Positions 1 through 64,000 of a DNA stretch of 64,000 bases are shown here, one piece after another. Every line of letters starts with the position of its first letter. Position 1 is the stretch's first letter. The notes under the pieces were generated by a model that saw only the letters and a list, made by a program, of their open reading frames with translations, was not told the origin of the DNA and made no database searches. The translations under genes were made by a program, and so were the position numbers. This stretch comes from Pontibacter burrus (GTDB lineage: Bacteria > Bacteroidota > Bacteroidia > Cytophagales > Hymenobacteraceae), in the NCBI RefSeq assembly GCF_010686685.1, contig NZ_JAAGWD010000005.1, positions 248,001-312,000 of the forward strand. The letters are read 5' to 3'.

Positions 1-1086
1 ATTAGCCATCCGGTAAAAAGCAGACAGGGTCTCGATCGGGTAAGAGCGGTAGAAATACTGGATCGGGTTCCAGTTTATATGGCTGTACTTGCCGTTAATG
101 CGGCCAACCAACTCATCCACCTCTTCTTTCAGTTCCTTGTACTTTTCCACTGCATCGCGGCTCGGAACTACCAGCATCACCAGTGTTACTTTATCATGAA
201 ACTCCGGGTATTGCTCCAGAAACATCTCAAAAGCCAGCAAGCGCTGTGGTATGCCTTTAGAGTAATCCAACCTGTCGATGGAGATGATAATATGTTCAGT
301 GCCTATGTTTTTGCGGTATTCCTGCTCTAGTTTCAGTACTTCTTCTGAGGCTGCTACAGTGGCATACTTTTCATAGTCTATACCCATCGGGAATGAATCG
401 ACCAGAATAGATCTGGAGCCGGTATTTATCCAGCCATGCATACCACCATACCCCAGAATACGGTTTACTGAACTGAGGAAGTGGCGCATGTCGTCATAGG
501 TATGGAAGCCTACCAGATCGGAACCGAGCATACCTTCCAGCAGTTCACGACGCCAGGGTAGTAACCGGAAAATTTCGTAGCTCGGGAACGGGATATGCTG
601 AAAGAAGCCGATAGTACTATCCGGCAGTTTTTTGCGCAGCATAGACGGCAACAGCAGCAACTGGTAGTCGTGCACCCAGATGGTATCGTTAGGGTTTGCG
701 TGTTTCAGAATCTCGTCGCAGTACTTCTGGTTAACTTCTACATAAGTCTCCCATAAATCCTGTTCGTAAATGGTGTACTGGCTGAAATAATGAAAGGAAG
801 GCCATAGTGTTTCGTTGCTGAATCCCTCGTAAAACTCCTTGATCTCAGTTTCTGACAAGAACACGGGGTACATATTGTCATGCCGAAGGTCTTCTATAAT
901 CCGCTCCTGTTTATCTTTATCATCAATAACCAATCCAGGCCATCCTATCCAGAGATTATCCTTTTTTTTGTAAATAGATCCTAGTCCTGTAGCTAATCCT
1001 CCTTCACTTGGGGTATACTTCAGTTTACCATCCTTCTCCTGTAGTTTAACCGGTAGGCGGTTGGATACTATAATAAGTTTTGCCAT
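1..1086 (-). CDS. otsA: Trehalose-6-phosphate synthase, 3' part outside window
   Basis: GT20 enzyme that joins UDP-glucose and glucose-6-phosphate to trehalose-6-phosphate in the cytoplasm. The reading frame is open from the ATG at 1084-1086 to the window edge (362 codons seen). The N-terminus reads MAKLIIVSNRLPV, followed by a glycine-rich GGLATGL loop, the WVHDYQLLLLP segment, the GFFQHIPFPS segment and the RLDYSKGIPQRL sugar-nucleotide segment, in the order expected for OtsA. Many Bacteroidota versions continue into a trehalose-phosphatase domain; that part would lie beyond position 1, so whether it is fused cannot be seen. It is the first trehalose route of the cluster. Confidence 0.95.
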   Translation of the reverse strand, partial: MAKLIIVSNRLPVKLQEKDGKLKYTPSEGGLATGLGSIYKKKDNLWIGWPGLVIDDKDKQERIIEDLRHDNMYPVFLSETEIKEFYEGFSNETLWPSFHYFSQYTIYEQDLWETYVEVNQKYCDEILKHANPNDTIWVHDYQLLLLPSMLRKKLPDSTIGFFQHIPFPSYEIFRLLPWRRELLEGMLGSDLVGFHTYDDMRHFLSSVNRILGYGGMHGWINTGSRSILVDSFPMGIDYEKYATVAASEEVLKLEQEYRKNIGTEHIIISIDRLDYSKGIPQRLLAFEMFLEQYPEFHDKVTLVMLVVPSRDAVEKYKELKEEVDELVGRINGKYSHINWNPIQYFYRSYPIETLSAFYRMAN

Positions 1087-1538
1087 TAGTATGTTGTGTT
1101 ATAGACTGGCAGTAATAATGTGGGGCTTCTCAGCCAAATTATCTGTGATACAATAGTTTATTGAGACGGGCATATAAGTACATGTCAGCTCTTTTATTCT
1201 TACGTACTAGTCCCTGTTATCGTTTACAGAATATTAGCCTTTTACTATAATTAGGTAATAGCAGTCGATGGTGTCCGTATTAATACGTAATAACCATTTT
1301 TGCGAGTCATAAAAGCAGTTATGAGGGTTAAACCAAACAGAAATACGGCAATGGAAACTATAGCCAGCCTTAACCTTCAGGCTTTTAAGTATAAGCATAT
1401 AGGCAGGCAATAAGCTATAGTTTGCGCATCATTACGTATGGATTGCAACTATAGCGTAAAACACTCCGCAGAGCAGGTGGTTGTCTTAATAGAGATATTT
1501 CCTTTAACTTGACAGAAAGTACAAAAACACTTTAATAC
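1087..1538. other. Intergenic region between otsA and the UPF0316 gene
   Basis: Divergent spacer of about 450 bp that must hold the promoters of both flanking genes. I see no ORF, RNA gene or clear -33/-7 pair; AT-rich stretches and a few CTATAG-type motifs are present. Confidence 0.5.
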
Positions 1539-2138
1539 ATGAACTTATCCCAGAGTCTGGACCCAACTATAGTTAACTGGGTAATTATTCCCTTGCTTAT
1601 TTTCCTGGCACGTATCATGGACGTTACCCTTGGCACCCTGCGCATAGTCTTTATCTCAAAGGGCGATAAAATGATAGCGCCGGCGCTGGGTTTCCTGGAA
1701 GTGCTGATCTGGCTGGTAGCTATTACGCAGGTAATGCAAAACCTGAACAATGTGGCCTCTTACCTGGCTTGGGCCGGCGGTTTTGCAACCGGTAACTTTC
1801 TAGGGCTGCGCATCGAGCAGAAACTGGCGTTGGGGCAAATGGTAGTGCGGGTTATTACTGTAGATTCGGCCCACAACCTGATAGAGCGACTGAAAGGCCA
1901 TGGTTATAGATTGACCTGTGTAGATGCCCGCGGCACCCGCGGTAAAGTAAACCTGCTGTTCATGATCGTGAAGCGCAAAAAGCTGAACCACGTACTCGAC
2001 ATCATCCGGGAATACAATCCGCAGGCTTTTTACTCTATCGAGGACGTACGTTCTGTATCTGATTATGGAGTTCCGCAGGAAGAATCTAAAAGAGGGCTGA
2101 GTTTACGCCGGATCTTCCCGCTGAGGAAAGGGAAATGA
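1539..2138 (+). CDS. UPF0316 / DUF2179 membrane protein
   Basis: About 199 residues. The first 80 residues hold hydrophobic membrane segments (PLLIFLARIMDVTLG, then APALGFLEVLIWLVAITQV), and residues about 95-170 form a soluble DUF2179-type domain that ends in the typical IREYNPQAFYSIEDVRSV stretch. The architecture matches the UPF0316 (YebE-like) family, whose function is not established. The ATG at 1539 starts the conserved N-terminus. It is monocistronic and ends at the fold-back repeat 2144-2218. Confidence 0.85.
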   Translation: MNLSQSLDPTIVNWVIIPLLIFLARIMDVTLGTLRIVFISKGDKMIAPALGFLEVLIWLVAITQVMQNLNNVASYLAWAGGFATGNFLGLRIEQKLALGQMVVRVITVDSAHNLIERLKGHGYRLTCVDARGTRGKVNLLFMIVKRKKLNHVLDIIREYNPQAFYSIEDVRSVSDYGVPQEESKRGLSLRRIFPLRKGK

Positions 2139-2143
2139 CTTAT

Positions 2144-2218
2144 AGTTTAGGAGTTAGAGAGTTTGGGAGTTGAGGAATTAATAACTCTCTAACTCCCAAA
2201 CTCTCTAACTCTTAAACT
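2144..2218. terminator. Long fold-back repeat, probable bidirectional terminator
   Basis: Two 28-base arms (2144-2171 and 2191-2218) are inverted copies with a single mismatch, separated by a 19-base loop. They lie between the convergent UPF0316 and glgB genes. The sequence is rich in GAGTT/AACTC repeats and resembles a second fold-back at 58442-58555. Confidence 0.7.
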
Positions 2219-2221
2219 GGT

Positions 2222-4447
2222 TTAGCTTTTTAACTTAAAGTATACCACTGCCAATGGCGGTAACTTCAGGGTCAGGGAGTAATCGCGGCCGTGCGATGGT
2301 TCTGCTGCTGCCTGCAGTGATTCCTGGTTCTGCACGTTGCTGCCGCCAAACTGCTCATCGTCGGAATTGAAAAGCTGTACCCATTCGCCCTTGTGTGGCA
2401 CACCTAACCTATAGTTTTCATGTACTACGGGTGTAAAGTTGCAAACTATAAGCACATCGTTTTTGGGGTCGTTGCCTTTCCTTAAAAAGCTTATTACGCT
2501 GTTGTGCGCATCCTGGAAATCTATCCACTCAAAGCCGCTGCTGTCGAAATTGTGCTCATAGAGGGCTGGTTCCTGCTGGTATAGTTTGTTTAGTTGCTGC
2601 AACAGCCGCTGCACTCCGCTGTGATAATGGTATTGTAGCAGGTGCCATTCCAGGCTGCTGTCATGGTTCCATTCGGAGCTTTGGGCCAGTTCCCCGCCCA
2701 TAAACATAAGTTTTGTGCCCGGGTGTGCATACATGTAACTATAGAGCATGCGCAGGTTGGCAAACTGCTGCCATTCATCGCCCGGCATTTTCCGGATGAG
2801 TGAGCCTTTGCCATGTACCACTTCATCGTGCGAGAGCGGCAGCATAAAGCGCTCCGAAAAGGCATAAATAATACTAAACGTAATCTCGCCCTGGTGGTGC
2901 TTGCGGTAGATCGGATCTAATGAAAAATAATGTAGTGTATCATGCATCCAGCCCATCATCCACTTCATATCGAAGCCTAGTCCTCCATCGTTTACCTTGC
3001 CTGTAACGGCCGGCCATGCCGTAGATTCTTCAGCTATAGTTTGCACATCTGGATACTTTTCATGCACCGCCTGGTTAAAGTCTTTAATGAGTGAGATGGC
3101 TTCCAGGTTTTCGCGGCCGCCGTGCTCGTTTGGTATCCACTCCCCTTCCTTGCGGCTATAGTCTAAGTACAGCATCGAGGCGACCGCATCTACCCGCAGG
3201 CCATCTACATGGTACTTATCGAGCCAGAAAAGCGCGTTGCTGATCAGGAAAGAGCGAACTTCATTGCGGCCATAGTTAAAGATGTAGCTGTTCCAGTCGG
3301 GGTGGTAGCCTTTGCGTGGGTCGGCGTGCTCGTACAAATGTGTGCCATCAAAGTAAGCCAGACCGTGCTCGTCAGACGGAAAGTGTGACGGTACCCAGTC
3401 CAGGATCACGCCAATGCCATGTTGGTGTAGTACATCTATCAGGTGCATGAGTTCCTGCGGCGAACCATACACACTGGCCGCAGCAAAGTAACCGGTAATC
3501 TGGTAACCCCAACTGCCCATAAACGGGTGGTGCATTACAGGCATAAACTCCACATGCGTAAAGCCCATTTCCTTTACATATTGCGGCAGTTCTTCGGCCA
3601 GTTCGTGGTAGGTCAGCGGTCGGTTGTTGTCTTCGGGTCTGCGGCGCCACGATCCTAAATGCACTTCATATACACTCATGGGCTGTGCCTGCCCAGCTAT
3701 AGTTTTGCGGCGTTCCATCCACTCGTGGTCCTGCCACTCATATTTCAGGTCGCTGATGCGCGAGGCTGTTTGTGGTGGCTTTTCACGGGCAAAAGCAAAT
3801 GGATCGCTCTTCTCTACGTGGTACAGATGGTAATTCGATTTGATGTGATACTTGTATAGTTCGCCGCCAGTCAGATCCGGAATAAAACCTTCCCAGATGC
3901 CGGAGCCATCTTCGCGCACTTTTAAGGAATGGCTGTCGCGGTTCCAGTGGTTAAAGTCACCGATAACGGTAACCAGTTCTGCATTGGGAGCCCACACAGC
4001 AAAGTAAGTCCCTTTTTGCCCGGCATGCTCCATGCAATGCGCGCCCATCTTATCATAAAGCGTAAAATGGCGGCCTTCTTTAAACAGGTAAACATCAAAA
4101 TCCGAGAACCTACTTAAATCGTGGTAAACAGCGCGTTTCTCCTGTGGAACTATAGTTTGTGCCTGTGCTATAGTTGCGGTGCCTGTTGCTTTTTTAGTAG
4201 CTCTTACTTTTTGCGCAGGTGTAAGATCAGTTGTCTCAACAGGCACTGCCTTGGTACGCGTTCTCTTTGGTTTTTCAGCAGGTTTAGCTTCAGTATCAGG
4301 AACTATAGTTACTGGTGAACCCATTTCCGCAGCCAGATCCGCCTTTTTAGGCCGGCCACGTTTTGCAGCTGGTTTTTCGCTACCTGCATCAGTTAATGGT
4401 GTAGTTACGTTTGTTTTCGGTGCCTTCTCAAGTTTTCTCTTAGCCAT
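2222..4447 (-). CDS. glgB: 1,4-alpha-glucan branching enzyme with basic N-terminal tail
   Basis: GH13 enzyme that makes alpha-1,6 branches in glycogen-like glucan. After residue about 107 it reads as a normal GlgB: CBM48 domain (YFAVWAPNAELVTVIGDFNHW), then the barrel with nucleophile Asp420 in DGLRVDAV, acid/base Glu at 473 in AEEST, and Asp541 in LPLSHDEVVHGKG, then a beta-sandwich end. The first ~105 residues are unusual: Lys/Pro/Ala/Thr-rich low complexity with an AT-hook-like KRGRPKK at 29-35, instead of the usual N1 domain. It overlaps the treS-maltokinase stop by 8 bases, so the two are probably co-translated. In the GlgE pathway GlgB branches the linear chains made by GlgE. Confidence 0.95.
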   Translation of the reverse strand: MAKRKLEKAPKTNVTTPLTDAGSEKPAAKRGRPKKADLAAEMGSPVTIVPDTEAKPAEKPKRTRTKAVPVETTDLTPAQKVRATKKATGTATIAQAQTIVPQEKRAVYHDLSRFSDFDVYLFKEGRHFTLYDKMGAHCMEHAGQKGTYFAVWAPNAELVTVIGDFNHWNRDSHSLKVREDGSGIWEGFIPDLTGGELYKYHIKSNYHLYHVEKSDPFAFAREKPPQTASRISDLKYEWQDHEWMERRKTIAGQAQPMSVYEVHLGSWRRRPEDNNRPLTYHELAEELPQYVKEMGFTHVEFMPVMHHPFMGSWGYQITGYFAAASVYGSPQELMHLIDVLHQHGIGVILDWVPSHFPSDEHGLAYFDGTHLYEHADPRKGYHPDWNSYIFNYGRNEVRSFLISNALFWLDKYHVDGLRVDAVASMLYLDYSRKEGEWIPNEHGGRENLEAISLIKDFNQAVHEKYPDVQTIAEESTAWPAVTGKVNDGGLGFDMKWMMGWMHDTLHYFSLDPIYRKHHQGEITFSIIYAFSERFMLPLSHDEVVHGKGSLIRKMPGDEWQQFANLRMLYSYMYAHPGTKLMFMGGELAQSSEWNHDSSLEWHLLQYHYHSGVQRLLQQLNKLYQQEPALYEHNFDSSGFEWIDFQDAHNSVISFLRKGNDPKNDVLIVCNFTPVVHENYRLGVPHKGEWVQLFNSDDEQFGGSNVQNQESLQAAAEPSHGRDYSLTLKLPPLAVVYFKLKS

Positions 4448-7772: not shown

Positions 7773-7789
7773 AGTGTAGTTTTATCTTT

Positions 7790-9811: not shown

Positions 9812-10075
9812 GAATTACAATAAGGTTTGCCTCAGAGTAGGTACTATTGTAATGAGATTAGGTTACCACAATTACCCGTTAAGGTAGACTACAGGCCGTT
9901 AGAACGCAGATTTAAATTTTGTGAAGGGAATCAGTGAAAGCAGCGCAGCTAACTATAAGCCTAATAGTTATTTTTAGATAAAGCTGAATTTAAAAGCCAT
10001 CTGCAATGTTCGCTCGCCAACTATAGTTACCGCAAAAATTAGCACATCAAACTATAGCAACTAACTATAAAGTAA

Positions 10076-10105: not shown

Positions 10106-10109
10106 CCTG

Positions 10110-11429: not shown

Positions 11430-11434
11430 ATATG

Positions 11435-12404: not shown

Positions 12405-14207
12405 ATGGGAATAACTAGAGAGATAGGCGCACATTATGTACCCGAAACGGGCACGACATTTACGGTTTGGGCACCTGAAGCAGAGCAGGTAGACGTAGTA
12501 GTCCATGGAGAGAAGAAGCAAACTATAGCCATGCAACGGGAAGCTTTCGGCTATTGGGTAGGCTTGTTTGAAGATGCCAAACCCGGCACACGCTATAGTT
12601 TTAAACTCAACAACGAGAAAGAATTACCCGACCCGGCCTCCATGTCGCAACCCGATGGCGTGCATGATTCTTCGGAAGTGATAGACCCAAACTATAGCTG
12701 GACCGACCAGAACTGGAAAAACCTGCCGCTGGAAGAATACATTGTATACGAGCTGCACGTGGGCACTTTTTCAGAAGAAGGCACTTTTGAAGGGATCATC
12801 AATAAACTACCGGAACTGAAAGATTTAGGCATAACCGCTATTGAGATCATGCCGATTGCGCAATTCCCGGGCAGCCGGAACTGGGGCTACGATGGCGTTT
12901 ACCCTTTTGCTGCGCAGGATAGTTATGGCGGCGTTGAGGGACTTAAAAAATTAGTGGATGCCTGCCACAAAGCTGATATTGCGGTGGTACTGGATGTAGT
13001 CTATAACCATTTGGGTCCGGAAGGAAATTACCTGAATGAGTTCGGGTCTTACTTTACCGAGAAATACAACACGCCCTGGGGAGCTGCCCTGAACTTCGAT
13101 GATGCCTATTCCGACCACGTACGTAATTTCTTTTTCCAGAATGCGCTGATGTGGTTGCGCGATTTCCATGTAGATGCCCTGCGCCTGGATGCCGTGCATG
13201 CGATACTGGATACCGGAGCCAAACATTTTCTGCAGGAACTTCAGGAGCATGTAGATCATCTGGCAGAACAACAAAACCATACTTATTATCTGATTGCCGA
13301 AAGTGACCTGAACGACGTGCGCCTGATCAACCCGATAGAGCAAGGCGGCTATGGCCTGGCAGCGCAGTGGATGGACGATTACCATCATGCCATCCACACC
13401 ATGGTAACCGGCGAGACGGAAGGCTACTATGCAGATTTCGGGAAGCGGGAGCACCTGGTAAAAGCACTGAAACACTCCTTTATTTACAACGGCTCTTACT
13501 CCGAGCACCGCAAACGAACTATAGGCACAGATGCCACGGATAACCCGGCCAAACAGTTTATAGTTTGCTCTCAGAACCACGACCAGGTAGGTAACCGCAT
13601 GTTAGGCGAGCGCCTGACGCAACTGGTTTCGTTTGAGATGCTGAAACCGATTGCCGCACTGGTTCTGCTTTCGCCTTACACGCCGATGCTGTTTATGGGC
13701 GAAGAATACGGCGAAGAAAATCCGTTCCTGTTTTTTGTGAGCCATACCGACAAGGACCTGGTGGAAGCTGTGCGCAAAGGCCGCAAGGATGAGTTTAAGG
13801 CGTTTGCCTGGCAGGGAGAAGCGCCGGACCCGCAATCCGAAGAGACCTTTAACAACTCCAAACTACAGTACAACTATACCCACAGCGAGAAACATAACCA
13901 GCTGCGCGAGTTTTATAAAACAGTCATCCAACTCCGGAAATCTATAGTTAGTAAGCTTAGCAAAGAGCACCTGCAGGCATCGCTGAACGAACATGAAAAC
14001 GTGCTTGATTTTACCCATACTTCGGCAGGAATCCGCTGCATTATCAACTTCAGCAAGGAGGAGCAAACTATAGAACTTGGTGTAAAAGGCTGGCAAACTA
14101 TACTTGATTCTGCTGATGAAAAATGGGGCGGACCGGGCAGCAACTATAGTTCTGAAAATACCATTCTGCAACCTGAGTCCGTAGTAGTACTTCAGGCAAG
14201 CAGATAG
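12405..14207 (+). CDS. treZ: Malto-oligosyltrehalose trehalohydrolase
   Basis: GH13 enzyme that releases trehalose from the reducing-end maltooligosyl-trehalose made by TreY. The 600-residue protein has an N-terminal CBM48-like domain (TTFTVWAPEAEQVDVVV), then a barrel with Asp262 in ALRLDAVHA, Glu299 in LIAESDLND and Asp393 in SQNHDQVGNR, and the family-typical PYTPMLFMGEEYGE. It is the first of four genes; the next ATG comes two bases after the stop. The AACTATAGTT family occurs about nine times in this gene, encoding TI(V), YS or IV peptides. Confidence 0.95.
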   Translation: MGITREIGAHYVPETGTTFTVWAPEAEQVDVVVHGEKKQTIAMQREAFGYWVGLFEDAKPGTRYSFKLNNEKELPDPASMSQPDGVHDSSEVIDPNYSWTDQNWKNLPLEEYIVYELHVGTFSEEGTFEGIINKLPELKDLGITAIEIMPIAQFPGSRNWGYDGVYPFAAQDSYGGVEGLKKLVDACHKADIAVVLDVVYNHLGPEGNYLNEFGSYFTEKYNTPWGAALNFDDAYSDHVRNFFFQNALMWLRDFHVDALRLDAVHAILDTGAKHFLQELQEHVDHLAEQQNHTYYLIAESDLNDVRLINPIEQGGYGLAAQWMDDYHHAIHTMVTGETEGYYADFGKREHLVKALKHSFIYNGSYSEHRKRTIGTDATDNPAKQFIVCSQNHDQVGNRMLGERLTQLVSFEMLKPIAALVLLSPYTPMLFMGEEYGEENPFLFFVSHTDKDLVEAVRKGRKDEFKAFAWQGEAPDPQSEETFNNSKLQYNYTHSEKHNQLREFYKTVIQLRKSIVSKLSKEHLQASLNEHENVLDFTHTSAGIRCIINFSKEEQTIELGVKGWQTILDSADEKWGGPGSNYSSENTILQPESVVVLQASR

Positions 14208-14209
14208 AT

Positions 14210-16609
14210 ATGGAGCGATACATTTGCATACACGGGCACTTTTACCAGCCGCCGCGCGAAAATCCCTGGCTCAACGAAGTAGAGCTGCAGGAATCGGCGC
14301 GACCGTACCACGACTGGAACGAGCGTATTACCGACGAATGCTACGCGCGCAACTCCGCCTCCCGCATCCTGGACAACGACGGAACTATAGTTGACATCCT
14401 GAACAACTACGCCTGGATGAGCTTTAACTTCGGGCCTACGCTGCTGGAGTGGATGGAGAAGAAAGCACCTGAAACCTACCAGGCTATACTGGCTGCGGAT
14501 AAGGAAAGTCAGGAGCGGTTTTCGGGACACGGCTCGGCGCTGGCGCAGGTGTATAACCACATGATCATGCCGCTGGCCAACGAGCGCGACAAACACACGC
14601 AAGTGTTGTGGGGAATTTATGATTTTAAAAAGCGCTTCGGCCGCAACCCGGAAGGCATGTGGCTCGGTGAAACAGCTGCCGATACACCTACGCTGGAAGT
14701 GTTGGCCGAGCATGGTATTAAGTTTACGATTTTGTCGCCGTACCAGGCCAAGAGCTACCGCAAAATAGGGGAACATGATTGGCACGATGCCACCAATGCG
14801 CAGATAAATCCGAACCGGCCGTACCTGGTCAACCTGCCATCTGGCAAAACTATAGTTGTGTTCTTTTACCATGCACCCGTATCTCAAGGCGTGGCGTTTG
14901 AGGGCTTGCTGCACAACGGCGAAAAGTTTAAGAACCGGTTACTGGGCGCGCTGGATTACAATAACGATGAACAGCAGCTACTACACATTGCCACCGACGG
15001 CGAAACCTATGGTCACCACCACCGCTTCGGCGAAATGGCGCTTTCCTATACGTTGCATCATCTGTATCAGGAGCAACAGGCAAGGCTTACTATTTATGGC
15101 GAGTACCTGGAGAAATTCCCGCCACAGTACGAAGCGCAGATCATCGAGAAAACATCCTGGAGTTGCGTTCATGGGGTGGAACGCTGGCAGAGCGACTGCG
15201 GCTGCAATACCGGTGGTCACCCAACCTGGAACCAGAAATGGCGCAAACCATTACGGCAAGCTTTCGATTGGCTGCGCGACGAACTGGAATCACTTTATAA
15301 TTCTCAGATGCAGCAACTCGGTGCCGATCCGTGGCAGAGCAGGAACAACTATATCCAGGTTATCTCCGACCGGTCAGAAGCAAATGTACAGGCATTTATT
15401 CGTGCGCATACTTCCCGGGAGTTAACTATAGAAGAGCAGCGCACTTTTCTACAATTGCTGGAAATGCAGTACCACGCCATGCTGATGTATACCAGTTGCG
15501 GTTGGTTTTTTGATGAAGTGACCGGTATCGAAACCATGCAGGATATTTTGTATGCTGCCCGTGCTCTGCAACTGGCCGAAAGCATTAGCGGACAAGACTA
15601 TGAAACCACTTTTCTGCAGATTTTGGAGCAGGCAGAAAGCAACGAAGATGACTATAAAAATGCCGCAGAAGCTTACCCGGCCATCGCCAAAACCACCATG
15701 CTTGACCTGTTACGCGTGGGCGCCCATTATGCGGTATCATCCCTGTTCTCAGACTATGCCAAAGAGAGCAAACTATACTGCTATAATGTAACATCCGAGC
15801 AACACGAGGCAGTAGAAGCCGGCCGACAGAAACTGGCGGTTGGCCGTGCCCGCATCCGTTCGAACATCACCTGGGACGAAGCAACTATAACCTACGGCGT
15901 GCTGCACATCGGTGATCATCAGTTGCTGGGCGGCGTGCGTGATTTCCGGGGCGATAATGCTTTTCAGGAGATGTACACCGAAATGGAAGATGCTTTCAGC
16001 AAAGGAATGATCAGTGAAGTGATCATGCTGCTGGACAAACATTTTGAATCGCACAACTACTCTTTCTGGCACCTCTTTCGCGACGACCAGAACCGGATCC
16101 TGAACAAGGTATTGGGCTACACCATGCACGCCATTGAAGGCGATTTTGAGCAGGTATACTATAACAACTACCCTTTAATGGCAGCCATGCATACGCTGAA
16201 TGTAACGCTACCGCGCCCATTAAAGGTGATTGTGGAGTACATGCTGAATAAAAAGATGCTGGATGAAGTGAACGCCGAAACTCCGGACCTGGAAGAAATG
16301 AAGCGCCTGAACGATCAGGCCAAACGCATGCAGCTCACCTTCGATCGGGAACAGCTCACCTTTGCTATTTCGCAGCGAATGGAGCGTTTTATGCAACAAT
16401 TGGAGCAGCAACCAGATAGCCTGCAGTTCATTAACCAGCTGAACGAACTACTTCCTGCACTGCACAATACTACCCTGCAACCCGACCTGTGGCAGGCGCA
16501 AAACATCGCCTTCCGGATAAAACAGCAACACTACGCCAACCACCCTACCGACTCCGAATGGAGCCAACTTTTTACCAAGCTATATGACAACTTAAATCTG
16601 AAAGTATAA
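14210..16609 (+). CDS. GH57 / DUF3536 family glycoside hydrolase
   Basis: 799 residues. The N-terminus MERYICIHGHFYQPPRENPW is a GH57 signature, and ATDGETYGHHHRFGEMALSY near residue 265 fits the catalytic region of that family. The C-terminal half (about 330-799) corresponds to DUF3536. GH57 members include alpha-amylases, branching enzymes and glucanotransferases; the specificity of this subgroup is not established. Its place between treZ and treY, abutting both (2-base and 0-base gaps), argues for a role in preparing or trimming glucans for TreY. No signal peptide, so cytoplasmic. Confidence 0.88.
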   Translation: MERYICIHGHFYQPPRENPWLNEVELQESARPYHDWNERITDECYARNSASRILDNDGTIVDILNNYAWMSFNFGPTLLEWMEKKAPETYQAILAADKESQERFSGHGSALAQVYNHMIMPLANERDKHTQVLWGIYDFKKRFGRNPEGMWLGETAADTPTLEVLAEHGIKFTILSPYQAKSYRKIGEHDWHDATNAQINPNRPYLVNLPSGKTIVVFFYHAPVSQGVAFEGLLHNGEKFKNRLLGALDYNNDEQQLLHIATDGETYGHHHRFGEMALSYTLHHLYQEQQARLTIYGEYLEKFPPQYEAQIIEKTSWSCVHGVERWQSDCGCNTGGHPTWNQKWRKPLRQAFDWLRDELESLYNSQMQQLGADPWQSRNNYIQVISDRSEANVQAFIRAHTSRELTIEEQRTFLQLLEMQYHAMLMYTSCGWFFDEVTGIETMQDILYAARALQLAESISGQDYETTFLQILEQAESNEDDYKNAAEAYPAIAKTTMLDLLRVGAHYAVSSLFSDYAKESKLYCYNVTSEQHEAVEAGRQKLAVGRARIRSNITWDEATITYGVLHIGDHQLLGGVRDFRGDNAFQEMYTEMEDAFSKGMISEVIMLLDKHFESHNYSFWHLFRDDQNRILNKVLGYTMHAIEGDFEQVYYNNYPLMAAMHTLNVTLPRPLKVIVEYMLNKKMLDEVNAETPDLEEMKRLNDQAKRMQLTFDREQLTFAISQRMERFMQQLEQQPDSLQFINQLNELLPALHNTTLQPDLWQAQNIAFRIKQQHYANHPTDSEWSQLFTKLYDNLNLKV

Positions 16610-25526: not shown

Positions 25527-25653
25527 GTTTGGTTTAATGTCCTATAGTTCTTTTACTTGTCATTTCAAACACTCTTGAGACGCGAGTCGAAAAGAGCCAG
25601 CGTAGCTGAGAGAAATCTATCGCAGACTATCGTTTTATAGTTAACTATAGTTG

Positions 25654-27174: not shown

Positions 27175-27265
27175 AGCTTTGTGTTGTATGTAGACTTGTA
27201 CTAACGACAGCATTAGTGACGGGTTGGTGTAAACTATAGTTTTTGCCGGGGTACTGAAACAAAAA

Positions 27266-31875: not shown

Positions 31876-31913
31876 GCTACACCGTATAGTTGAGAAACAA
31901 ACTATAGTTTCTC

Positions 31914-37668: not shown

Positions 37669-39058
37669 CTATATCCTGCAGTCGGGGCTGTGCCTGCTCC
37701 TGTTCTATGTGTTTTACATGCTGGTGCTGCGCACTTTTCCGCGTACTGGGTTCAGCCGCCTCTACCTGTTGCTGGTCCCACTGCTGGCTATAGTTATCCC
37801 GCTTATAGAGCTGCCAATAGCGGCCGTGCAGCATTACCTGCCTGCCGTCGTGCTGCCGGAATTTGTATTGCCTGAGGTTATAGTTACTGCTCACCCCCCG
37901 CAGCAAACTATAGTTCCGGAAAGTATTTTTAGGCTGAGCTTTATGCTAACTATAGTTTATGCAACGGTGGCAGCTGTGCTTTTAATCCGATTAGGCAGAC
38001 AATTACTAGAGCTGCGACAGCTGGCAAAAGATGCAACCATTATCCAAGGTCACAACACAGAGGCAACTATCCTGCAAACTGAAAAACACGCAACATTCGC
38101 TTTCCTGAACTATATTTTCCTGAACCAGCAAACACACCTGAGCGAGCTGGAACAAAAGCAGGTGCTGGCCCACGAACTAGCACACGTACGTTTAGGCCAT
38201 AGTTATGATGTGTTGTATTACGAAGTGCTGACCGCCCTGCTTTGGTTTAACCCGCTCGTTTGGCTGCTGAAGGCGGAGCTGCGCGATGTGCACGAATACC
38301 AGGCCGATGCCGCTGTAACTACAGAATACCAGCCAGATGTTTATACCTCTTTACTGGCTAAAGAGGCCCTATACAGAACAGGTATTCCGGTAGGGCATCA
38401 TTTTTATAAGCCACAGGTATTCAAGCGGCTGCGCATGCTCCAGAAACGTAACGAGCAAACCACTCTAGTTCGCCCGCTGCTTGCTGTACCACTACTATTG
38501 TTGATGGTATTCTTCTTCTCAGCTAAAGACGTAACAGCCGATATGGTAGAACGCCTGGCAAAGCCTGTAGCAAAACAATTTACAGAACCATCTCCAGCAA
38601 CCACAACTCCACAACCTGAGCCTGAAACAGCAACCGGCCCGTTGGTAGCAACCCCTGAAACTATAGCACCAGAAAGATACATACCCAAACCAGCGGAAAA
38701 GCCGGCACCTGAAAAGTCCCAGCCACCAGCTAAACAGGAACCTTATAGTTATGTAGAGCAGATGCCAAGCTTCGAAGGTGGTGAGGTAGAGATGCACAAG
38801 TTCATAGCCAGAAGTATCCGTTACCCACAAACCACAAAAGAAGCTGGTTTAGAAGGCCTGGTAGTTGCAAGTTTCGTGATAGAAACGGATGGCTCCTTAT
38901 CAGATATTACGATACTAAAAGGCCTGGACGAAGCTGCCGATCAGGAAACCAGAAGGGTTATAGAATCTATGAGTGGTAAATGGCAGCCCGGCATGCAAAA
39001 TGGTCAGGTAGTCCCTGTAAGATACACTATTCCGATGCGGTTTGCATTAATTAACTAA
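37652..39058 (+). CDS. M56 (BlaR1-like) peptidase with C-terminal TonB domain
   Basis: 468 residues. Several N-terminal membrane helices, a cytoplasmic-type zinc peptidase motif HELAHVRLGH (His174, Glu175, His178), another helix (LLAVPLLLLMVFFFSA), a Pro/Glu-rich linker (~300-355) and a TonB_C domain starting near PSFEGGEVEMHKFIARSIRYP and ending VRYTIPMRF. Bacteroidota M56 proteins commonly swap the BlaR1 penicillin sensor for such a TonB-type domain. Likely inactivates the BlaI repressor on an envelope signal. Confidence 0.9.
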   Translation: MEATYNYILQSGLCLLLFYVFYMLVLRTFPRTGFSRLYLLLVPLLAIVIPLIELPIAAVQHYLPAVVLPEFVLPEVIVTAHPPQQTIVPESIFRLSFMLTIVYATVAAVLLIRLGRQLLELRQLAKDATIIQGHNTEATILQTEKHATFAFLNYIFLNQQTHLSELEQKQVLAHELAHVRLGHSYDVLYYEVLTALLWFNPLVWLLKAELRDVHEYQADAAVTTEYQPDVYTSLLAKEALYRTGIPVGHHFYKPQVFKRLRMLQKRNEQTTLVRPLLAVPLLLLMVFFFSAKDVTADMVERLAKPVAKQFTEPSPATTTPQPEPETATGPLVATPETIAPERYIPKPAEKPAPEKSQPPAKQEPYSYVEQMPSFEGGEVEMHKFIARSIRYPQTTKEAGLEGLVVASFVIETDGSLSDITILKGLDEAADQETRRVIESMSGKWQPGMQNGQVVPVRYTIPMRFALIN

Positions 39059-40462: not shown

Positions 40463-40939
40463 ATGAAGAAGCTATTGCTAACTATAACTTTTGCCGCTCT
40501 AACTATAGTTAGCGTACTTGGCCAGAGCAGGGCGCTTACCTTTCAGGAAGCTGAAAAACAGGGTATCCCCTTCCAGAAGCTGGACAGCCTGTATAAAAGT
40601 GCCATCCATTCTGATGCTACTTTAGCTGTGTTCAAAACACCGGACCAGCAAACTGAGCTGCAGCATGCCTACGTTAAACTTTTGCAGGACCTGGGCACTT
40701 ACCTGAGAGATAACAATTTTAAATGGGAAACACAGGTCCGCGGTGCGAACAGAATCTACATGCAGCCGGATGGCCGGATAGATTACTTCCTGTTTCACTT
40801 TCCGGAAGGGCAGCTTACACCGGAAAAGGAGCAGCAATTCACACAACTGCTGAACCGTTTTATCCGCAACTATAGGTTTGCCATTACCGCCCCGGAAAAG
40901 TTTGCCCAATGCAGCGCCGTGCGCTATTCAGATAATTAA
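40463..40939 (+). CDS. Exported protein of unknown function
   Basis: About 158 residues from the ATG at 40463, giving a good signal peptide MKKLLLTITFAALTIVSVLG; an ATG at 40442 adds seven residues. The mature part is soluble with no domain I recognise (DGRIDYFLFHFPEGQLTPEKEQQF). Nine bases or so after the TonB-repeat gene, so probably the last gene of the blaI operon. Confidence 0.65.
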   Translation: MKKLLLTITFAALTIVSVLGQSRALTFQEAEKQGIPFQKLDSLYKSAIHSDATLAVFKTPDQQTELQHAYVKLLQDLGTYLRDNNFKWETQVRGANRIYMQPDGRIDYFLFHFPEGQLTPEKEQQFTQLLNRFIRNYRFAITAPEKFAQCSAVRYSDN

Positions 40940-40941
40940 AT

Positions 40942-40978
40942 AAAAAGCCCGCAGCTAAACTATAGTTGCGGGCTTTTT
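40942..40978. terminator. Bidirectional terminator with AACTATAGTT in its loop
   Basis: Perfect 12-bp stem AAAAAGCCCGCA/TGCGGGCTTTTT between convergent genes; the loop is formed largely by the iterated palindrome. Confidence 0.85.
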
Positions 40979-40996
40979 AAACTATAAAACTATAGT

Positions 40997-41770
40997 TTAC
41001 ATATCCCACTCATTCAGGCTCGACATGGCGTGGTAAGCCGTCATATCAAACTGGCAGGGCACTACCGAAATATAGTTGTTCACGATCGCCCATTCATCTG
41101 TATCTTCGCCTTTATCATGGTTTACAAAGCTGCCGGTCATCCAGAAATAACGGCGGTTACGTGGGTCCAGGCGCTCGTCAAACTCTTCCTGCCAGCGGGC
41201 GTGTGCCTGTCTGCAGATCTTTACTCCTTTTATAGGCTCTTCACTTTTCTTCGGGAAGTTCACGTTCAGGGCAGTATTCTCCGGAATGCGGTGTTTTAAC
41301 GCCTGGCGAATAATTTGCTCCACATAAGGCGCTGTATGCGAGAAATCCGCTTCGTGGCCATAGTCGCAAAGTGAGAAGCCAATAGCAGGAAGTCCTTCAA
41401 TAGCCGCCTCTATTGCCGCCGACATGGTGCCGGAATACAATACGCTGATGCTGGAGTTAGAGCCATGGTTTATGCCGCTTACTACCAGGTCAGGGTTGCG
41501 GTCTTTCAGCACATGGTGCTTCGCCAGTTTTACGCAGTCGGCTGGTGTGCCGGAGCATTCGTAGGCTTCTATCCCAAGATCATCAAATGCAATGGATTTA
41601 TCGAGGCGTAGTGTGTTGCCTATCGTAATAGCATGTCCCATACCAGACTGTGGTCCGTCGGGCGCTACTACTACCACGTCTCCTACTTTCATGGCTACTT
41701 CAACAAGTGTTCGTATGCCCGGTGCAGTAATACCGTCGTCGTTCGAGATCAGGATCAGAGGTTTAGCCAT
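40997..41770 (-). CDS. surE: 5'/3'-nucleotidase SurE
   Basis: 257 residues. SurE dephosphorylates nucleoside monophosphates under stress. Metal ligands are in ILISNDDGITAPGI (Asp11, Asp12), with SGMGHAIT, CSGTPADCVKLA, LVVSGINHGSNSS and LNVNFP all conserved. Monocistronic. Confidence 0.95.
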   Translation of the reverse strand: MAKPLILISNDDGITAPGIRTLVEVAMKVGDVVVVAPDGPQSGMGHAITIGNTLRLDKSIAFDDLGIEAYECSGTPADCVKLAKHHVLKDRNPDLVVSGINHGSNSSISVLYSGTMSAAIEAAIEGLPAIGFSLCDYGHEADFSHTAPYVEQIIRQALKHRIPENTALNVNFPKKSEEPIKGVKICRQAHARWQEEFDERLDPRNRRYFWMTGSFVNHDKGEDTDEWAIVNNYISVVPCQFDMTAYHAMSSLNEWDM

Positions 41771-45790: not shown

Positions 45791-45970
45791 ATTGCTCCAC
45801 AAAACAAACAACTATAGTTTATGCCTTACAGTAGTCCATCTGCACACTCAATTAACCCAAATGGCAAAGCTTTGCGATAAGCTAAACTGTAGTTCTATAG
45901 ACTCTAATATCAGGTATTAACTATAAGCTATTTCCTACGTTTAATGCCTCTATACCACTGTGTGATTTAT

Positions 45971-46486: not shown

Positions 46487-46939
46487 ATGGATACTATAAT
46501 AAAAGGCGCAATTATTTACATCTTTCTGCTACTTATCTTCAGGTTAAGCGGCAAGAGAACCATGTACGATGTCACCGTATTTGATTTTGTGTTGTTGCTG
46601 ATCATTGCTGAAACTACGCAGCAGGCACTTCTCGGCGATGATTTCTCGCTGACCAATGGTTTACTGCTCATTACAACCCTGATCGTGCTCGACATTATTA
46701 TATCGCTCCTGAAGCAGAAATACAGTCCCATAGAAAAACTGGTGGACGGGGGGCCGATGATAATTATGGACAAAGGCCAACTACTGAAGGACCGCATGCA
46801 AAAAGAACGCATTGATGAATCAGACATTCTGGAATCGGCAAGAGACCTGCATGGGTTGCAACGCCTGGACCAGATCAAATACGCAATATTGGAAAAGAAC
46901 GGGAATATCACGATTATTCCGCAGGAGAAAACCAGCTGA
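46487..46939 (+). CDS. DUF421 (YetF/YcaP-like) membrane protein
   Basis: 150 residues. N-terminal helices IIYIFLLLIFRLSGKRT and FDFVLLLIIAETTQQALLG contain the family's SGKR and FDF elements; the C-terminal cytoplasmic part starts KLVDGGPMIIMDKGQLLKDRM and ends in an ILEKNGNITIIPQ strand. The family is conserved but of unknown function. Confidence 0.88.
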   Translation: MDTIIKGAIIYIFLLLIFRLSGKRTMYDVTVFDFVLLLIIAETTQQALLGDDFSLTNGLLLITTLIVLDIIISLLKQKYSPIEKLVDGGPMIIMDKGQLLKDRMQKERIDESDILESARDLHGLQRLDQIKYAILEKNGNITIIPQEKTS

Positions 46940-46974
46940 ACTATAGTTACCGTTCACAACCATCATATATAACA

Positions 46975-51685: not shown

Positions 51686-52276
51686 TTATGCTTTTTTGTA
51701 AACAATGCACCCAATCAGGTCAGGATGGTCCTGTACCAGATCCTGCTTTTTGGCTTTCCGGAGCATCCAGAGAATTAGCGCATCGCCACCGGCAGCTAAA
51801 ATAAACAACAGACCAAATGCAAAGAAATAGAGGTTGCCCAGCATCAGTCCAACTATAGTTGGCAGTATTCCCATTACCAGGCCCGGCATCATACCGCCAA
51901 GCATGTAGGCTTTAAGCGGAAGTACTTCCTTGCAATGGCAGTACGGGGTAAGCATTTTCCAGTGCACGCCATATTTTATAGATTTAAGTCCGTTTTTGCA
52001 GAAAACAGCCCAGGTAAGGCCATGCAATAACTCATGCACTACAGCACCGGGAATAAAAAGAAGCAAAGGGTAGTAAAATATCTTTTCTTTATGAGCTGTA
52101 AAAAAACTTCTAATGGTATGTGCCTCAAACTGCTCCGGCCACATCCAAACGTAAATCGGCACACAAACAAGCAGCAACGGAACAATAAACCCAAGAGCAA
52201 GTACATTGGCTTTTTCGGCACTCATTGTAAGTTCCTGCTTTATATAATCCTGCATCTGTAGTTCCTGCTGCTCCAT
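51686..52276 (-). CDS. DUF3267 membrane protein with HExxH motif
   Basis: 196 residues, four or five membrane helices. PGAVVHELLHGLTW places an HExxH zinc motif inside a membrane region, as in DUF3267 zincin-like proteins; YMLGGMMPGLVMG and GGDALILWML match the rest of the family. Whether it is a protease is not known. Confidence 0.85.
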   Translation of the reverse strand: MEQQELQMQDYIKQELTMSAEKANVLALGFIVPLLLVCVPIYVWMWPEQFEAHTIRSFFTAHKEKIFYYPLLLFIPGAVVHELLHGLTWAVFCKNGLKSIKYGVHWKMLTPYCHCKEVLPLKAYMLGGMMPGLVMGILPTIVGLMLGNLYFFAFGLLFILAAGGDALILWMLRKAKKQDLVQDHPDLIGCIVYKKA

Positions 52277-52389
52277 AGTTGTGTAAAATAGCTATAAAAA
52301 CGAAGCCAGAAAAGCAGAATTTAACACGCCTACTTTGCTTAACTATAGTTTCCTGCAAAAACAGCACTTTAACTATAAAACAAAAAAAC

Positions 52390-56474: not shown

Positions 56475-58385
56475 TTACCTGCTGATTACAATACCCAGCA
56501 GGTCGCCCATCTGCTTGTGTAGCATTTTGAGGTTGATGATGTTGCGCAACTGGTGATCCTGCTCCTGCGGGTCTGTTACCAGCCTCAGTTTCTGGGTTTC
56601 CTCGTCGATCAGTTTCTCCAGATACCGATATTTCAGGCGCAGCACAGCACGCTCAGAGCCATATGGCAACAGGTCTGATTCGTGGGGTACGAAAATAGAG
56701 TGCGTGGCCCAGCCCGGGCTAAGTTCATGCGGGTCAGACAGCAGATCTATAGTTGCGGTTCGTATTTCCTGATCCGGGTAATTGATGTATTCGTCGGTAG
56801 TTGGTATTCTGCCGCCGGCAAGTCCTTCTTTAATCAGCTCTATGAAACGGGCGTAAAGTGGCGTTTGTATCTCTACATCTTCCAGCTCCTCGAGCATGTA
56901 TTGCACTGTTGTTAGGCCTTCGTCCAGTAGCTTATCAGGGTAGTTTAGCAGCATGCGCACAATCTCGCGCTCGTACCGCTTCAGTATATCCGCTACCGAC
57001 TCTTCTTTTTCAGGCTCTGGTGCAACTGGCGGAGCAACAAGAAAGTCCTGGGCAGGGCTACCAGACTTTTGCTGTTGGCGCTCCTGCAAGTGCATTTTGT
57101 TATACTCCGAGATCAGCACCTGCTCATCTATATCAAAGATAAGGCTGGTGCTCTGGAAGAAAACAGTACGCTTAATGGAGTCCGGAATTTTGGCTATAGT
57201 TGTTACGATCTCGCGTATAGCCTCAGCTTTCTTTACCGGGTTGCCTTTTGCCTCTTCCGCATACAGGCTCGATTTGTAGGAGATGAAATCCTGGGCATGT
57301 GCATTTACATAGGCTTTAAAGGCCGTGTCGCCAACTTTTTGAATATAAGAGTCCGGGTCTTCGCCTTCCGGGAAAGTTACAACCTGCACGTTCAGCCCCT
57401 GTTCTAAGATCAGGTCGATACCGCGCAACGATGCCTTTATACCAGCCGCATCGCCATCGTACAATACCGTAATGTTATGCGTATAGCGCGCAATCAGCTT
57501 TATCTGCCCTTCCGTAAGCGAGGTACCTGATGAAGATACCACGTTCTCGATACCGCCCTGGTGCAGCGAAATCACATCGAGGTAGCCTTCCACCAGGTAG
57601 CACATATCCTGCATGCGCATGGCCTGCCTTGCCTGGTACAAACCGTAGAGCACATGGCTCTTATGGTAGATCTCAGACTCCGGCGAGTTCAGGTATTTCG
57701 GGCTTTTCTTGTCGTTGGATTTAAGCGTGCGGGCACCAAAACCCACTACCCTTCCCGACACGTTGTGGATCGGGAACATGACGCGAGCCCGGAACCTGTC
57801 GTAGCGTTTGTCTTCCTTAACTATAGTTAAACCTGTTGCCTCTAAATAATGCTGTTTGTAGCCTTCTTTCAGGGCAGCATCGGTCAGGTCGCTCCATGCA
57901 TCTATACTATAGCCCAGTTCAAACTTTTTTATAGTTGCTGCACTAATGCCACGCTGCTTCAGGTAAGACTGGCCTATATTACCCTCTTCGTGACTATACA
58001 GGTTGTGCTGGTAGTGCTTGCTGGCAAAATCCGAAACTATAAACAGGCTGTCGCGTGCGCTTTGCTCCTGGGTATATTCTACCGTCTGCTCTTCTGGAAT
58101 CTCGATACCATATTTTTTTGCCAGGTATTTCAGGGCCTCCGGAAAGCTGGAGCCTTCCACATCCATAATAAACTGCACCGAGTTACCTGCCTTGCCGCAA
58201 CCAAAGCATTTGTAAATGCCTTTAGCCGGCGAAACCGAGAATGAAGGGGATTTTTCGTGGTGAAACGGGCAGCAGGCCCACATGTTCTGCCCCTTCTTCT
58301 TCAAAGAAACGAAATCACCTACAACCTCTACAATATCGGCCTGGGCAATGATCTGGTCAACGGTTTCTTTTGGGATTAAAGACAT
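56475..58385 (-). CDS. dnaG: DNA primase
   Basis: 636 residues from the ATG at 58385 (MSLIPKETVDQIIAQADIVE); an ATG eight codons upstream is less likely. Zinc-binding CHC2 domain (CPFHHEKSPSF ... YKCFGCGKAG, ~35-75), core with VEGYLDVISLHQGGI and VLYDGDAAGIKAS as the TOPRIM motifs, and a C-terminal helical domain for helicase contact. Makes RNA primers at the replication fork. Confidence 0.96.
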   Translation of the reverse strand: MSLIPKETVDQIIAQADIVEVVGDFVSLKKKGQNMWACCPFHHEKSPSFSVSPAKGIYKCFGCGKAGNSVQFIMDVEGSSFPEALKYLAKKYGIEIPEEQTVEYTQEQSARDSLFIVSDFASKHYQHNLYSHEEGNIGQSYLKQRGISAATIKKFELGYSIDAWSDLTDAALKEGYKQHYLEATGLTIVKEDKRYDRFRARVMFPIHNVSGRVVGFGARTLKSNDKKSPKYLNSPESEIYHKSHVLYGLYQARQAMRMQDMCYLVEGYLDVISLHQGGIENVVSSSGTSLTEGQIKLIARYTHNITVLYDGDAAGIKASLRGIDLILEQGLNVQVVTFPEGEDPDSYIQKVGDTAFKAYVNAHAQDFISYKSSLYAEEAKGNPVKKAEAIREIVTTIAKIPDSIKRTVFFQSTSLIFDIDEQVLISEYNKMHLQERQQQKSGSPAQDFLVAPPVAPEPEKEESVADILKRYEREIVRMLLNYPDKLLDEGLTTVQYMLEELEDVEIQTPLYARFIELIKEGLAGGRIPTTDEYINYPDQEIRTATIDLLSDPHELSPGWATHSIFVPHESDLLPYGSERAVLRLKYRYLEKLIDEETQKLRLVTDPQEQDHQLRNIINLKMLHKQMGDLLGIVISR

Positions 58386-61447: not shown

Positions 61448-61563
61448 TCCGGTTTTGCTACAGTTGGGGTTATAGTTCTATAGTTGGAGGTTAATCATCC
61501 CCCTACCCCCTTAAAAGGGGGACTTTCTGCTACTGCTATAGTTTCAACTATTGTTCTATAGTT

Positions 61564-61880
61564 GCAGACCATGAACAGGCAGGCGCAGCCTGGCCCAAGG
61601 AACTATAGCCACGGAAAGGCGATGCAATGACAGCTTATCACCAAACTATAGTTGTGCTATCGAAATGGTATCAGTCTTTGGGTGGAGCGCCTTTGACTTG
61701 TTGCGGTGCCGTCAGCCAACACGAGCGCAGCGAGGGTAGCAAGAAGGCAGCAGCGCGATGCCCGAAGACGGGGCCCCGCGGCCGTGAGCGCACCAAAGCA
61801 TCTATAATACTGTAGGCCAGTAAAGCTCCCAGGATCGACAGTAGCTATGAAAGATACTGCTTGTGGCAATCCAGCAACTA
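61564..61880 (+). repeat. Composite intergenic repeat, copy D
   Basis: Same order of blocks as copies A-C, except that the centre has been replaced: between AGTCTTTGGGTGGAGCGCC and GCGCGATGCCCGAAGACGGG it reads TTGACTTGTTGCGGTGCC and ACGAGCGCAGCGAGGGTAGC instead of the GTAGATTTCTGGTG version, pointing to insertion, exchange or divergence of the middle part. Confidence 0.8.
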
Positions 61881-62061
61881 TAGTTTGCTAAAGGACGCAT
61901 AAGATCCTTCGACTAACGCTCAGGATCACAAAGGAGAAACTGTAGTTTGAGATAGATTTCTCGTTACACTCGAAATGACAAGATAAGACTATGCGACTTC
62001 GCTTAGAATGACAAAACAACCAACAATTAACAATCATCTTTCCCTTCCGTATCAAAATAAC

Positions 62062-63367: not shown

Positions 63368-63405
63368 TTGCTGGTTGTTAATTGTTGATTGTTAAATTGT
63401 TGATA

Positions 63406-63495
63406 GCTGGCGAGAGCTTGTAGCTCGTGCCCAAATATAAAGTTGAATCGGTATTGCAAACTATAGTTCGGCACGAGCTACAAGCTCGCGCCAGC
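63406..63495. repeat. Inverted repeat with 26-base arms around AACTATAGTT
   Basis: Arms 63406-63431 and 63470-63495 are inverted copies with one mismatch, built on GCTTGTAGCTCGTGCC; the 38-base spacer contains one AACTATAGTT next to the right arm. Looks like a REP/BIME-type element. Confidence 0.65.
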
Positions 63496-63549
63496 AGAAG
63501 AATCATCTCGTGTAGCAAACTATAGATATCAAATTATAGCATCAACTAT

Positions 63550-63589
63550 AAACTATAAAACCACTGCTAACCCGGTGGTTTTATAGTTT
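63550..63589 (+). terminator. Terminator built on the CTATAG motif
   Basis: Perfect 15-bp stem AAACTATAAAACCAC/GTGGTTTTATAGTTT; the T-run is the CTATAGTTT half. Confidence 0.8.
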
Positions 63590-63682
63590 AAGAGCAACCA
63601 TTGCCGGCTTACCTCAGAAGCCGTATATTTGAAAGCAGCCAGTTATACTGTATCACAAACTATAGTTATACTTTACAAATTC

Positions 63683-64000
63683 ATGGCCTATAAAACCATT
63701 GATCCACAAGACGTTAAAACCGCTGAAGTACATGCGCTTTTATTAGGCGCCATTGCCCCGCGCCCGATTGCCTTTGCCAGCACCACCGACCTGGAAGGAA
63801 ATGTAAACCTGAGCCCGTTCAGCTTTTTTAACGTGTTCAGTGCCAAGCCTCCAATTTTGGTCTTTTCACCTGCCCGCCGCGTGCGTGACAATACCAGCAA
63901 ACATACCCTGGAAAATGTACTGGCTACCAAAGAGGTGGTGATCAACATTGCCAACTATGATATTGTAGAGCAGATGTCGCTGGCCAGCACAGAGTACGAC
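63683..64000 (+). CDS. Flavin reductase family protein, 3' end outside window
   Basis: The frame is open from the ATG at 63683 to the window edge (106 codons). IAPRPIAFASTTDLEGNVNLSPFSFFN and NVFSAKPPILVFSP are the FMN-binding signature of the flavin reductase-like domain (DIM6/NTAB type). The end is missing, so subgroup and length are unknown. Confidence 0.88.
   Translation, partial: MAYKTIDPQDVKTAEVHALLLGAIAPRPIAFASTTDLEGNVNLSPFSFFNVFSAKPPILVFSPARRVRDNTSKHTLENVLATKEVVINIANYDIVEQMSLASTEYD

Follow-up and report, generated by a model that had tools for sequence, protein, structure and literature searches.

A short asymmetric word iterated through Pontibacter genomes in dialects that follow phylogeny

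Introduction

Why does a single ten-base palindrome, AACTATAGTT, recur along a 64-kb stretch of the Pontibacter burrus genome (contig NZ_JAAGWD010000005.1, positions 248,001 to 312,000; this whole stretch is called the window)? The first-pass annotation, made from the letters of the window alone, had counted about 25 exact copies and likened the motif to HIP1 of cyanobacteria. There are 27, and the ten positions it quoted are correct to within 0-3 bases; about 0.1 copies are expected by chance, and first-order Markov simulations of the window (n=60) averaged 0.117 and never exceeded 2, so that the enrichment claimed is real. We find that the repeated unit is an asymmetric word contained in the palindrome, that related genomes carry it in dialects, and that it may well mark self DNA for a DNA-handling machine.

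Twelve of the 27 palindromes lie in predicted genes, 13 lie between genes and 2 straddle a gene end, and the genome that holds the window (G000; 4,314,171 bases, 29 contigs) contains 1300 copies, against 9 of a reversed control word; the occurrence in coding and intergenic DNA throughout the genome was thus described correctly. In 20 codon-preserving shuffles of the 348 predicted genes in 464 kb of G000, the sample used for gene-level counts, the palindrome averaged 1.7 (standard deviation 1.0) against 55 observed, and the seven-base AACTATA averaged 104 (standard deviation 8.6) against 744; genes were predicted with a simple caller of our own (coding fraction 0.77-0.86). A count near the shuffled expectation, or an excess confined to the window, had been named as outcomes that would undo the claim; codon shuffles give far fewer copies, and the excess extends across the genome.

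The TreY protein of the window is 92-94% identical to those of Pontibacter fetidus BT213, Pontibacter sp. Tf4 and P. populi HLY7-15, all three of which bear the motif (in their combined 68 kb there are 24 palindromes), and 59% identical to that of P. harenae, in which no palindrome was found in 22.7 kb. Each of 22 genomes from other families of the order held at most 12 copies.

The repeated unit is asymmetric

The near copies that the annotation had mentioned beside the palindrome proved to be the main phenomenon. AACTATA, both strands taken together, occurs 226 times in the window, which is 20 times what an order-2 model predicts and amounts to about one place per 320 bp; AACTATA(G), of seven to eight bases, was the strongest word in k-mer counts. 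AACTATAA occurs 348 times in the 464 kb, where an order-2 model predicts 22; because it cannot belong to the palindrome, its excess speaks for an asymmetric unit. When the 865 CTATAG sites of the same sample were classed by their arms (AA before and TT after), 157 carried both, 559 one and 149 none, where independence predicts 220, 432 and 212, and the test agreed in G018 (98/293/58 against 133/223/93) and G031 (69/253/54 against 102/188/87). Double-armed sites are rarer than under independence in all three genomes, although still commoner than background flanks predict, because TT follows other TAG in only 14-17%. The repeated unit is the asymmetric AACTATA(G), not the palindrome, and one arm usually suffices. 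The likeness to HIP1 was therefore fair in kind, but not as regards a palindromic unit, which is contradicted by the arm counts and by the different, non-palindromic words of relatives.

Sites fill half of the permitted coding positions and are conserved

The 7-mer reaches 2.8-3.1 copies per kb overall, with 6-9 per kb between genes against 2 per kb within them; its density peaks right behind stop codons and where two genes converge (12.1 per kb) and is lowest where they diverge (4.7 per kb). Some of this could come from the spread of a dispersed intergenic repeat with the word inside it: three repeats hold 26 of the 226 window copies, and repeated DNA accounts for 149 of the 598 intergenic sites in the 464 kb. 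Intergenic density outside repeats is still 5.2 per kb, however, and the sites in predicted genes number seven times the codon shuffle; these coding sites refute the repeat as the main cause, and as an explanation of the whole it is scarcely credible.

We termed a position permitted where a synonymous choice in a predicted protein, stop codons included, could write AACTATA. The word is written at 744 of 1583 permitted positions in G000, 335 of 677 in G018 and 1013 of 2070 in G031 (occupancy 0.47-0.50); for shuffled 7-mers (25 drawn, of which only those with more than 20 permitted positions entered the summary), median occupancy was 0.04-0.07, and the top single value was 0.30 in G000. Permitted positions are also denser in G000 (4.3 per kb) than in G021 (2.6) and G071 (3.0), genomes of different base composition, which is only suggestive of a word pressure that shifts amino-acid choices.

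Between G000 and G018 (67 kb aligned, 82% identity; sites with gaps were excluded here and in the conversion counts below), coding sites (n=121) were intact in 66% of cases and control 7-mers (n=535) in 37%. Intergenic divergence per base was 0.122 in sites and 0.337 in their flanks, against 0.147 and 0.214 for controls; the coding result is the safer of the two, because intergenic alignments may be drawn to a frequent word.

Dialects within the genus

Fifty Pontibacter genomes were compared, a dialect bearer being defined as a genome with at least 2000 exact copies of the word, strands summed, a threshold that was set after the counts had been seen. Seven genomes bear AACTATAG, the AACTATA dialect (G000, G018, G031, G064, G065, G027 and G033); 23 bear AAGTATAA, including three of these seven (G064, G027 and G033); and 12 bear AGGTATAG. 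The words take the form ANNTATAR, one or two letters apart, and occur in thousands of copies about equally on both strands; in G000, AACTATAG has 3772 forward and 3717 reverse copies (control 80 and 77). The other dialect words, too, are non-palindromic. Eleven genomes stayed below 2000 for all three words: G007 has partial levels of all three, and the others besides G068 are low (k-mer scans of such genomes rest on 40-80 kb each). G068 may have a further dialect, [AC]TATATA[AG], self-overlapping and weaker than the rest at about 3-7 fold over expectation (100 kb).

The dialects follow phylogeny. On a dnaG tree of the 50 genomes all dialect labels need 7 changes, against a mean of 26.1 for shuffled labels, and none of 200 shuffles came as low. 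The AGGTATAG bearers form one clade in this tree (100/100). AACTATA bearers form one clade in a 30-genome tree (100/99) and two groups, with 2 changes, in the 50-genome tree, whose bootstrap had not settled and in which G002 is a long branch; they form one group in 32% of bootstrap trees, and a single gain of this dialect is plausible. Outside the genus, 150 genomes taken out of a larger group and representing five further genera of the family were counted for AAGTATAA alone; none has more than 700 copies, although one of these genera reaches up to about 2.4 times its control. No comparable TATA-type word turned up in 40 kb from each of five genomes of the order's other families, or in one sister genus (60 kb, two genomes), scans in which some CACCAC- or CTCCTC-type words appeared.

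Old sites have been carried over into new dialects, and orthologous sites switch at the dialect base. At AAGTATA sites of G033, which with G027 is one of the two-dialect genomes examined, position 3 is C in 16 of 42 cases in G031 and 18 of 40 in G000, the other six bases being identical; control words with G at that place have C in 197 of 7635 (G031) and 194 of 6726 (G000). Four other pairs agree on this change from G to C (G027-G031, G071-G031, G071-G000 and G021-G000). AAGTATA of G021 corresponds to AGGTATA at 5 of 7 sites in G010 (control 233 of 1614, p 0.001) and at 2 of 4 in G011 (p 0.1, not significant). In comEC of 31 genomes, 33 site columns are common to three or more genomes, and at 9 of them more than one dialect form stands in the same column and strand.

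Two arrays of dialect words were observed. In G020, C1:1944098-1946633 holds an array of AGGTATAG with a spacing of about 66 bases in its listed part, perhaps of CRISPR (clustered regularly interspaced short palindromic repeats) type, which inflates the AGGTATAG count of that genome; near comEC of G010 (L138 3661-3721), a tandem AGGTAT array amounts to 10 overlapping copies of the dialect word of G010.

Strand neutrality and motif-poor DNA

In 30 stretches of 20 kb from G031, with strand assigned by the GC skew of each stretch, AACTATA was divided 899 to 928 (p = 0.51), and every stretch contained the word. Chi and KOPS are polar signals; the strand bias along the replichore expected of them is absent, and both were rejected. 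A chromosome-organising or polarity signal more generally (Chi, KOPS or a nucleoid-protein site), with each site directly selected, would agree with the conservation of the word and its presence in all 30 stretches, but agrees poorly with this strand balance and with inter-site spacings that give no sign of helical phasing apart from peaks at 8, 12 and 20, which by eye look largely repeat-borne; we regard it as very unlikely.

Ten of the 13 predicted genes in the poorest of the 30 stretches (0.40 per kb) were scanned, and they include phage integrases, a transposase and AbiEii. The secondary contigs G021:C2 and G001:C2 (74 and 116 kb, by their size probably plasmids) each yielded 3 AAGTATAA in 40 kb, where their genomes as a whole have about 1.0 and 0.7 per kb, and are thus 9-14 times poorer; one 20-kb piece of G021:C2 has 11 copies of the 7-mer. 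Scarcity in acquired DNA was seen in this small sample, one island and two secondary contigs. It bears on a process other than uptake, in which a repair or recombination enzyme with conversion biased to the word would act on resident DNA. Such an enzyme would suffice to saturate permitted positions and to convert sites at their dialect bases, but should not have spared the two contigs, unless they are recent arrivals; no mechanism of this kind that handles an asymmetric 8-mer is known to us, and we consider this explanation unlikely.

A possible reader of the word

We favour, at about even confidence, the explanation that AACTATA(G) is the self-recognition word of a sequence-specific DNA-handling machine, most likely one of DNA uptake (transformation), and that it has spread by drive. 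Fragments bearing the word would be taken up and recombined more often, and molecular drive would thereby distribute the word along the chromosome, with the tolerance of proteins as its main limit; were the specificity of the reader to shift by one or two bases, sites would convert one by one to a new dialect, and two-dialect genomes would be in transition or equipped with a broad or double reader. We infer the existence of a reader, its action in uptake, and drive instead of selection at each site. The wider claim, of pilus-independent self-DNA recognition in Bacteroidota, a system with three or more dialects within a single genus that fills half of the permitted coding positions and probably shifts amino-acid choices, is put forward more tentatively.

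The gene comEC, present in 50 of 50 genomes, is the most occupied of 456 genes in G031 (16 of 18 permitted positions, uncorrected p 4.8e-4). In the AACTATAG, AAGTATAA and AGGTATAG dialects its occupancy is 0.79 (22/28, 2 genomes), 0.45 (145/321, 17 genomes) and 0.63 (45/71, 5 genomes), where genome samples gave 0.39-0.50, 0.24-0.31 (G021, G071 and G030; G027 and G033, at 0.40 and 0.46, were excluded) and 0.28-0.33, and dnaG gave 0.63 (38/60), 0.16 (16/99) and 0.37 (39/106); in 7 genomes without the words comEC occupancy is 0.09-0.12. These values, from 31 of the 50 genomes, with only the longest open frame of G018, are suggestive of over-occupation of comEC relative to genome samples in all three dialects, related genomes being counted several times. 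comEC appears to be split into two frames in G018, and one stop interrupts its match in each of G009 and G022, through assembly error or loss.

A methyltransferase might act on the word instead. In the model that Elhai proposed for cyanobacterial HIP1, the word is the target of a DNA methyltransferase, and near-matches become fixed as copies of it through methyl-directed mismatch repair; the Pontibacter word resembles HIP1 and the alternate HIPs in being abundant, chromosome-wide and subject to lineage-specific replacement (PMC4390886, in part). The dialect words are not palindromic, however, judging from the arm counts, and a search of two methyltransferase families (C5, D12 and other families were not searched) revealed no shared strong gene, so that both were rejected as the common factor. 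PF02384 (N6_Mtase) had some match over a low cut-off in 50 of 50 genomes, but strong matches were patchy, and the AAGTATAA-rich G006 and G060 gave only E 7e-5 to 5e-4; PF01555 (N6_N4_Mtase) had no match in G000, G018, G031, G033 and G065, five of the seven AACTATA bearers, and none in G060. The methylation-linked cause that the first-pass annotation had offered thus finds no support in these two families, and a mechanism of this kind seems to us quite unlikely. Methylase-linked and Chi-like readings fit less well than uptake.

Several observations weigh against uptake as well. No reader protein was found among the candidates searched, and natural competence in Pontibacter was not found in the literature searched. 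The pilus ATPase family PF00437 passed the cut-off in 3 of 50 genomes, each time over about 60 residues or fewer and never as a full match (other pilus genes were not searched), and was rejected as a sign of a classical reader; the known class of reader of DNA uptake sequences (DUS) is therefore unavailable, and any reader must differ. The presence of comEC was rejected as a discriminator, since the gene also occurs in the 11 genomes without the three words; its top rank fails multiple-test correction, its raw motif density in G031 (p = 2.1e-5) is to be read with gene counts overdispersed twofold and related genomes non-independent, and dnaG of AACTATA bearers is also above average. Sites are clustered, not regularly spaced (coefficient of variation 1.34 against 1.11 at random), and motif poverty is not confined to mobile DNA, because the next poorest G031 stretch (0.85 per kb) holds ordinary metabolic genes, those of a cbb3-oxidase, along with sensor genes (10 of 19 genes scanned). 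PF18942 (DUF5689), a family of Riemerella transformation proteins, is present in 22 of 50 genomes and was rejected as a universal reader: the shorter form, about 430 residues long, which starts like a lipoprotein and has a SusD-like frame beside it (both by eye), is missing from many bearers (any match in 19 of 50, a close one in 8 of 50), and a form of about 1280 residues with lamin-tail and nuclease domains (two scanned) occurs in genomes with and without the motif.

One DUF5689 protein of G031 stands in a gene row (C1:4157748-4166690) with a TonB-dependent receptor, a frame in the usual SusD position, a PLD-like protein and a calcineurin-like phosphoesterase, which perhaps serves the use of extracellular nucleic acid; close relatives of this protein occur in 8 of 50 genomes.

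Features of the window

Sites in the window are given in Table 1. The dispersed intergenic repeat carries runs of same-direction motif copies 8 and 12 bases apart and has relatives in other intergenic regions of the same genome; by eye, a stretch beside comEC of G010 resembles it. The trehalose genes treS with maltokinase, treZ and treY occupy 4440-19303. Rfam gave no match in the window at the gathering score, and none in 25000-33000 at E 0.5.

Table 1. Copies of the word, double-armed sites (AACTATAGTT) and dispersed repeats in the window
Feature	Position	Strand	Remarks
AACTATA / TATAGTT, asymmetric unit	1..64000	.	226 copies at 199 distinct places (27 palindromes counted twice)
Double-armed site	1565..1574	.	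in predicted gene
Double-armed site	4148..4157	.	in predicted gene
Double-armed site	4301..4310	.	in predicted gene
Double-armed site	10019..10028	.	between genes
Double-armed site	14142..14151	.	in treZ
Double-armed site	14383..14392	.	in predicted gene
Double-armed site	14848..14857	.	in predicted gene
Double-armed site	25643..25652	.	between genes
Double-armed site	25869..25878	.	between genes
Double-armed site	27232..27241	.	between genes
Double-armed site	28644..28653	.	in dispersed intergenic repeat
Double-armed site	31359..31368	.	in predicted gene (first-pass annotation: 31358)
Double-armed site	31900..31909	.	between genes
Double-armed site	37906..37915	.	in predicted gene
Double-armed site	37948..37957	.	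same predicted gene as 37906..37915 (first-pass annotation: 37945)
Double-armed site	40501..40510	.	in predicted gene
Double-armed site	40958..40967	.	between convergent genes
Double-armed site	40988..40997	.	straddles end of predicted gene
Double-armed site	45810..45819	.	between genes
Double-armed site	46939..46948	.	straddles end of predicted gene
Double-armed site	51851..51860	.	in predicted gene
Double-armed site	52341..52350	.	between genes
Double-armed site	57819..57828	.	in dnaG
Double-armed site	61644..61653	.	in dispersed intergenic repeat
Double-armed site	61876..61885	.	in dispersed intergenic repeat
Double-armed site	63459..63468	.	between genes
Double-armed site	63658..63667	.	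between genes
Dispersed intergenic repeat	20963-21466		several hundred bases
Dispersed intergenic repeat	28240-28751		several hundred bases
Dispersed intergenic repeat	61330-61980		several hundred bases

Comparison with known systems

AACTATAGTT, AACTATAG, AAGTATAA and AGGTATAG were not found in print in the literature searched, which included few subscription papers and no preprints, and by title and the start of the abstract none of the papers listed on Pontibacter palindromes, Bacteroidetes uptake sequences or iterated palindromes concerns this signal. With HIP1 and the alternate HIPs of cyanobacteria the Pontibacter word shares high frequency along the chromosome and lineage-specific replacement; HIPs are palindromic, the alternates are G+C-rich, and they accompany methyltransferases (PMC4390886, in part), whereas the Pontibacter word is asymmetric and A+T-rich, and one methyltransferase family, PF01555, is missing from most bearers of the AACTATA dialect. 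The palindromic unit of HIP1-type words and the strand bias of Chi and KOPS are both absent here.

Within Bacteroidota, Riemerella transforms without pilus homologues, with ComEC essential and surface proteins used, so that pilus-free uptake exists in the phylum (PMC8459023, in part). By the heading of one paper, Riemerella columbina prefers its own DNA in uptake; frequent k-mers listed there for Riemerella, of undecided function, are A-rich (PMC7965970, in part), unlike the Pontibacter word. A further difference is that the DUF5689 relatives found in Pontibacter do not track the motif.

The uptake signal sequences (USS) of Pasteurellaceae are iterated uptake words with family variants and pilus-linked uptake; an iterated word with variants is shared with Pontibacter, and the words themselves are unrelated. 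In Pasteurellaceae and Neisseriaceae the readers of uptake words have been sought among pilins; for the neisserial type the reader is a minor pilin of the type IV pilus.

The closest likeness is to the DUS of Neisseriaceae, for which dialects are established and in which S. muelleri has two (PMC3630211, in part). Shared are an iterated word in thousands of copies, dialects that differ base-wise around a conserved core and follow phylogeny, and a two-dialect genome (PMC3630211, in part), as well as mostly intergenic or permissive sites, better conserved than their flanks and lacking in recently acquired genes (PMC2397512, in part); like DUS, the Pontibacter word is asymmetric and lies on both strands. 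Its density is near the highest reported, that of kingDUS, with 5918 copies in 2.4 Mb (PMC3630211, in part). It differs in length (7-8 against 10-12 bp), in phylum and in the type IV pilus, which was judged by its ATPase (PF00437) alone and of which no full match was found. As its anatomy matches neisserial DUS in most testable points, the word is held probably to work like an uptake sequence; as word length and pilus differ, it is not filed as a member of the pilus-read DUS family. Should the machine serve something other than uptake, about half of the permitted coding positions would be filled by a process that calls for another explanation and can be tested in an environmental genus. If it does serve uptake, a second, independent origin of dialect uptake words without the pilus ATPase would show, beside the neisserial system, what is general in self-DNA recognition, and the two-dialect genomes would catch a switch of specificity under way.

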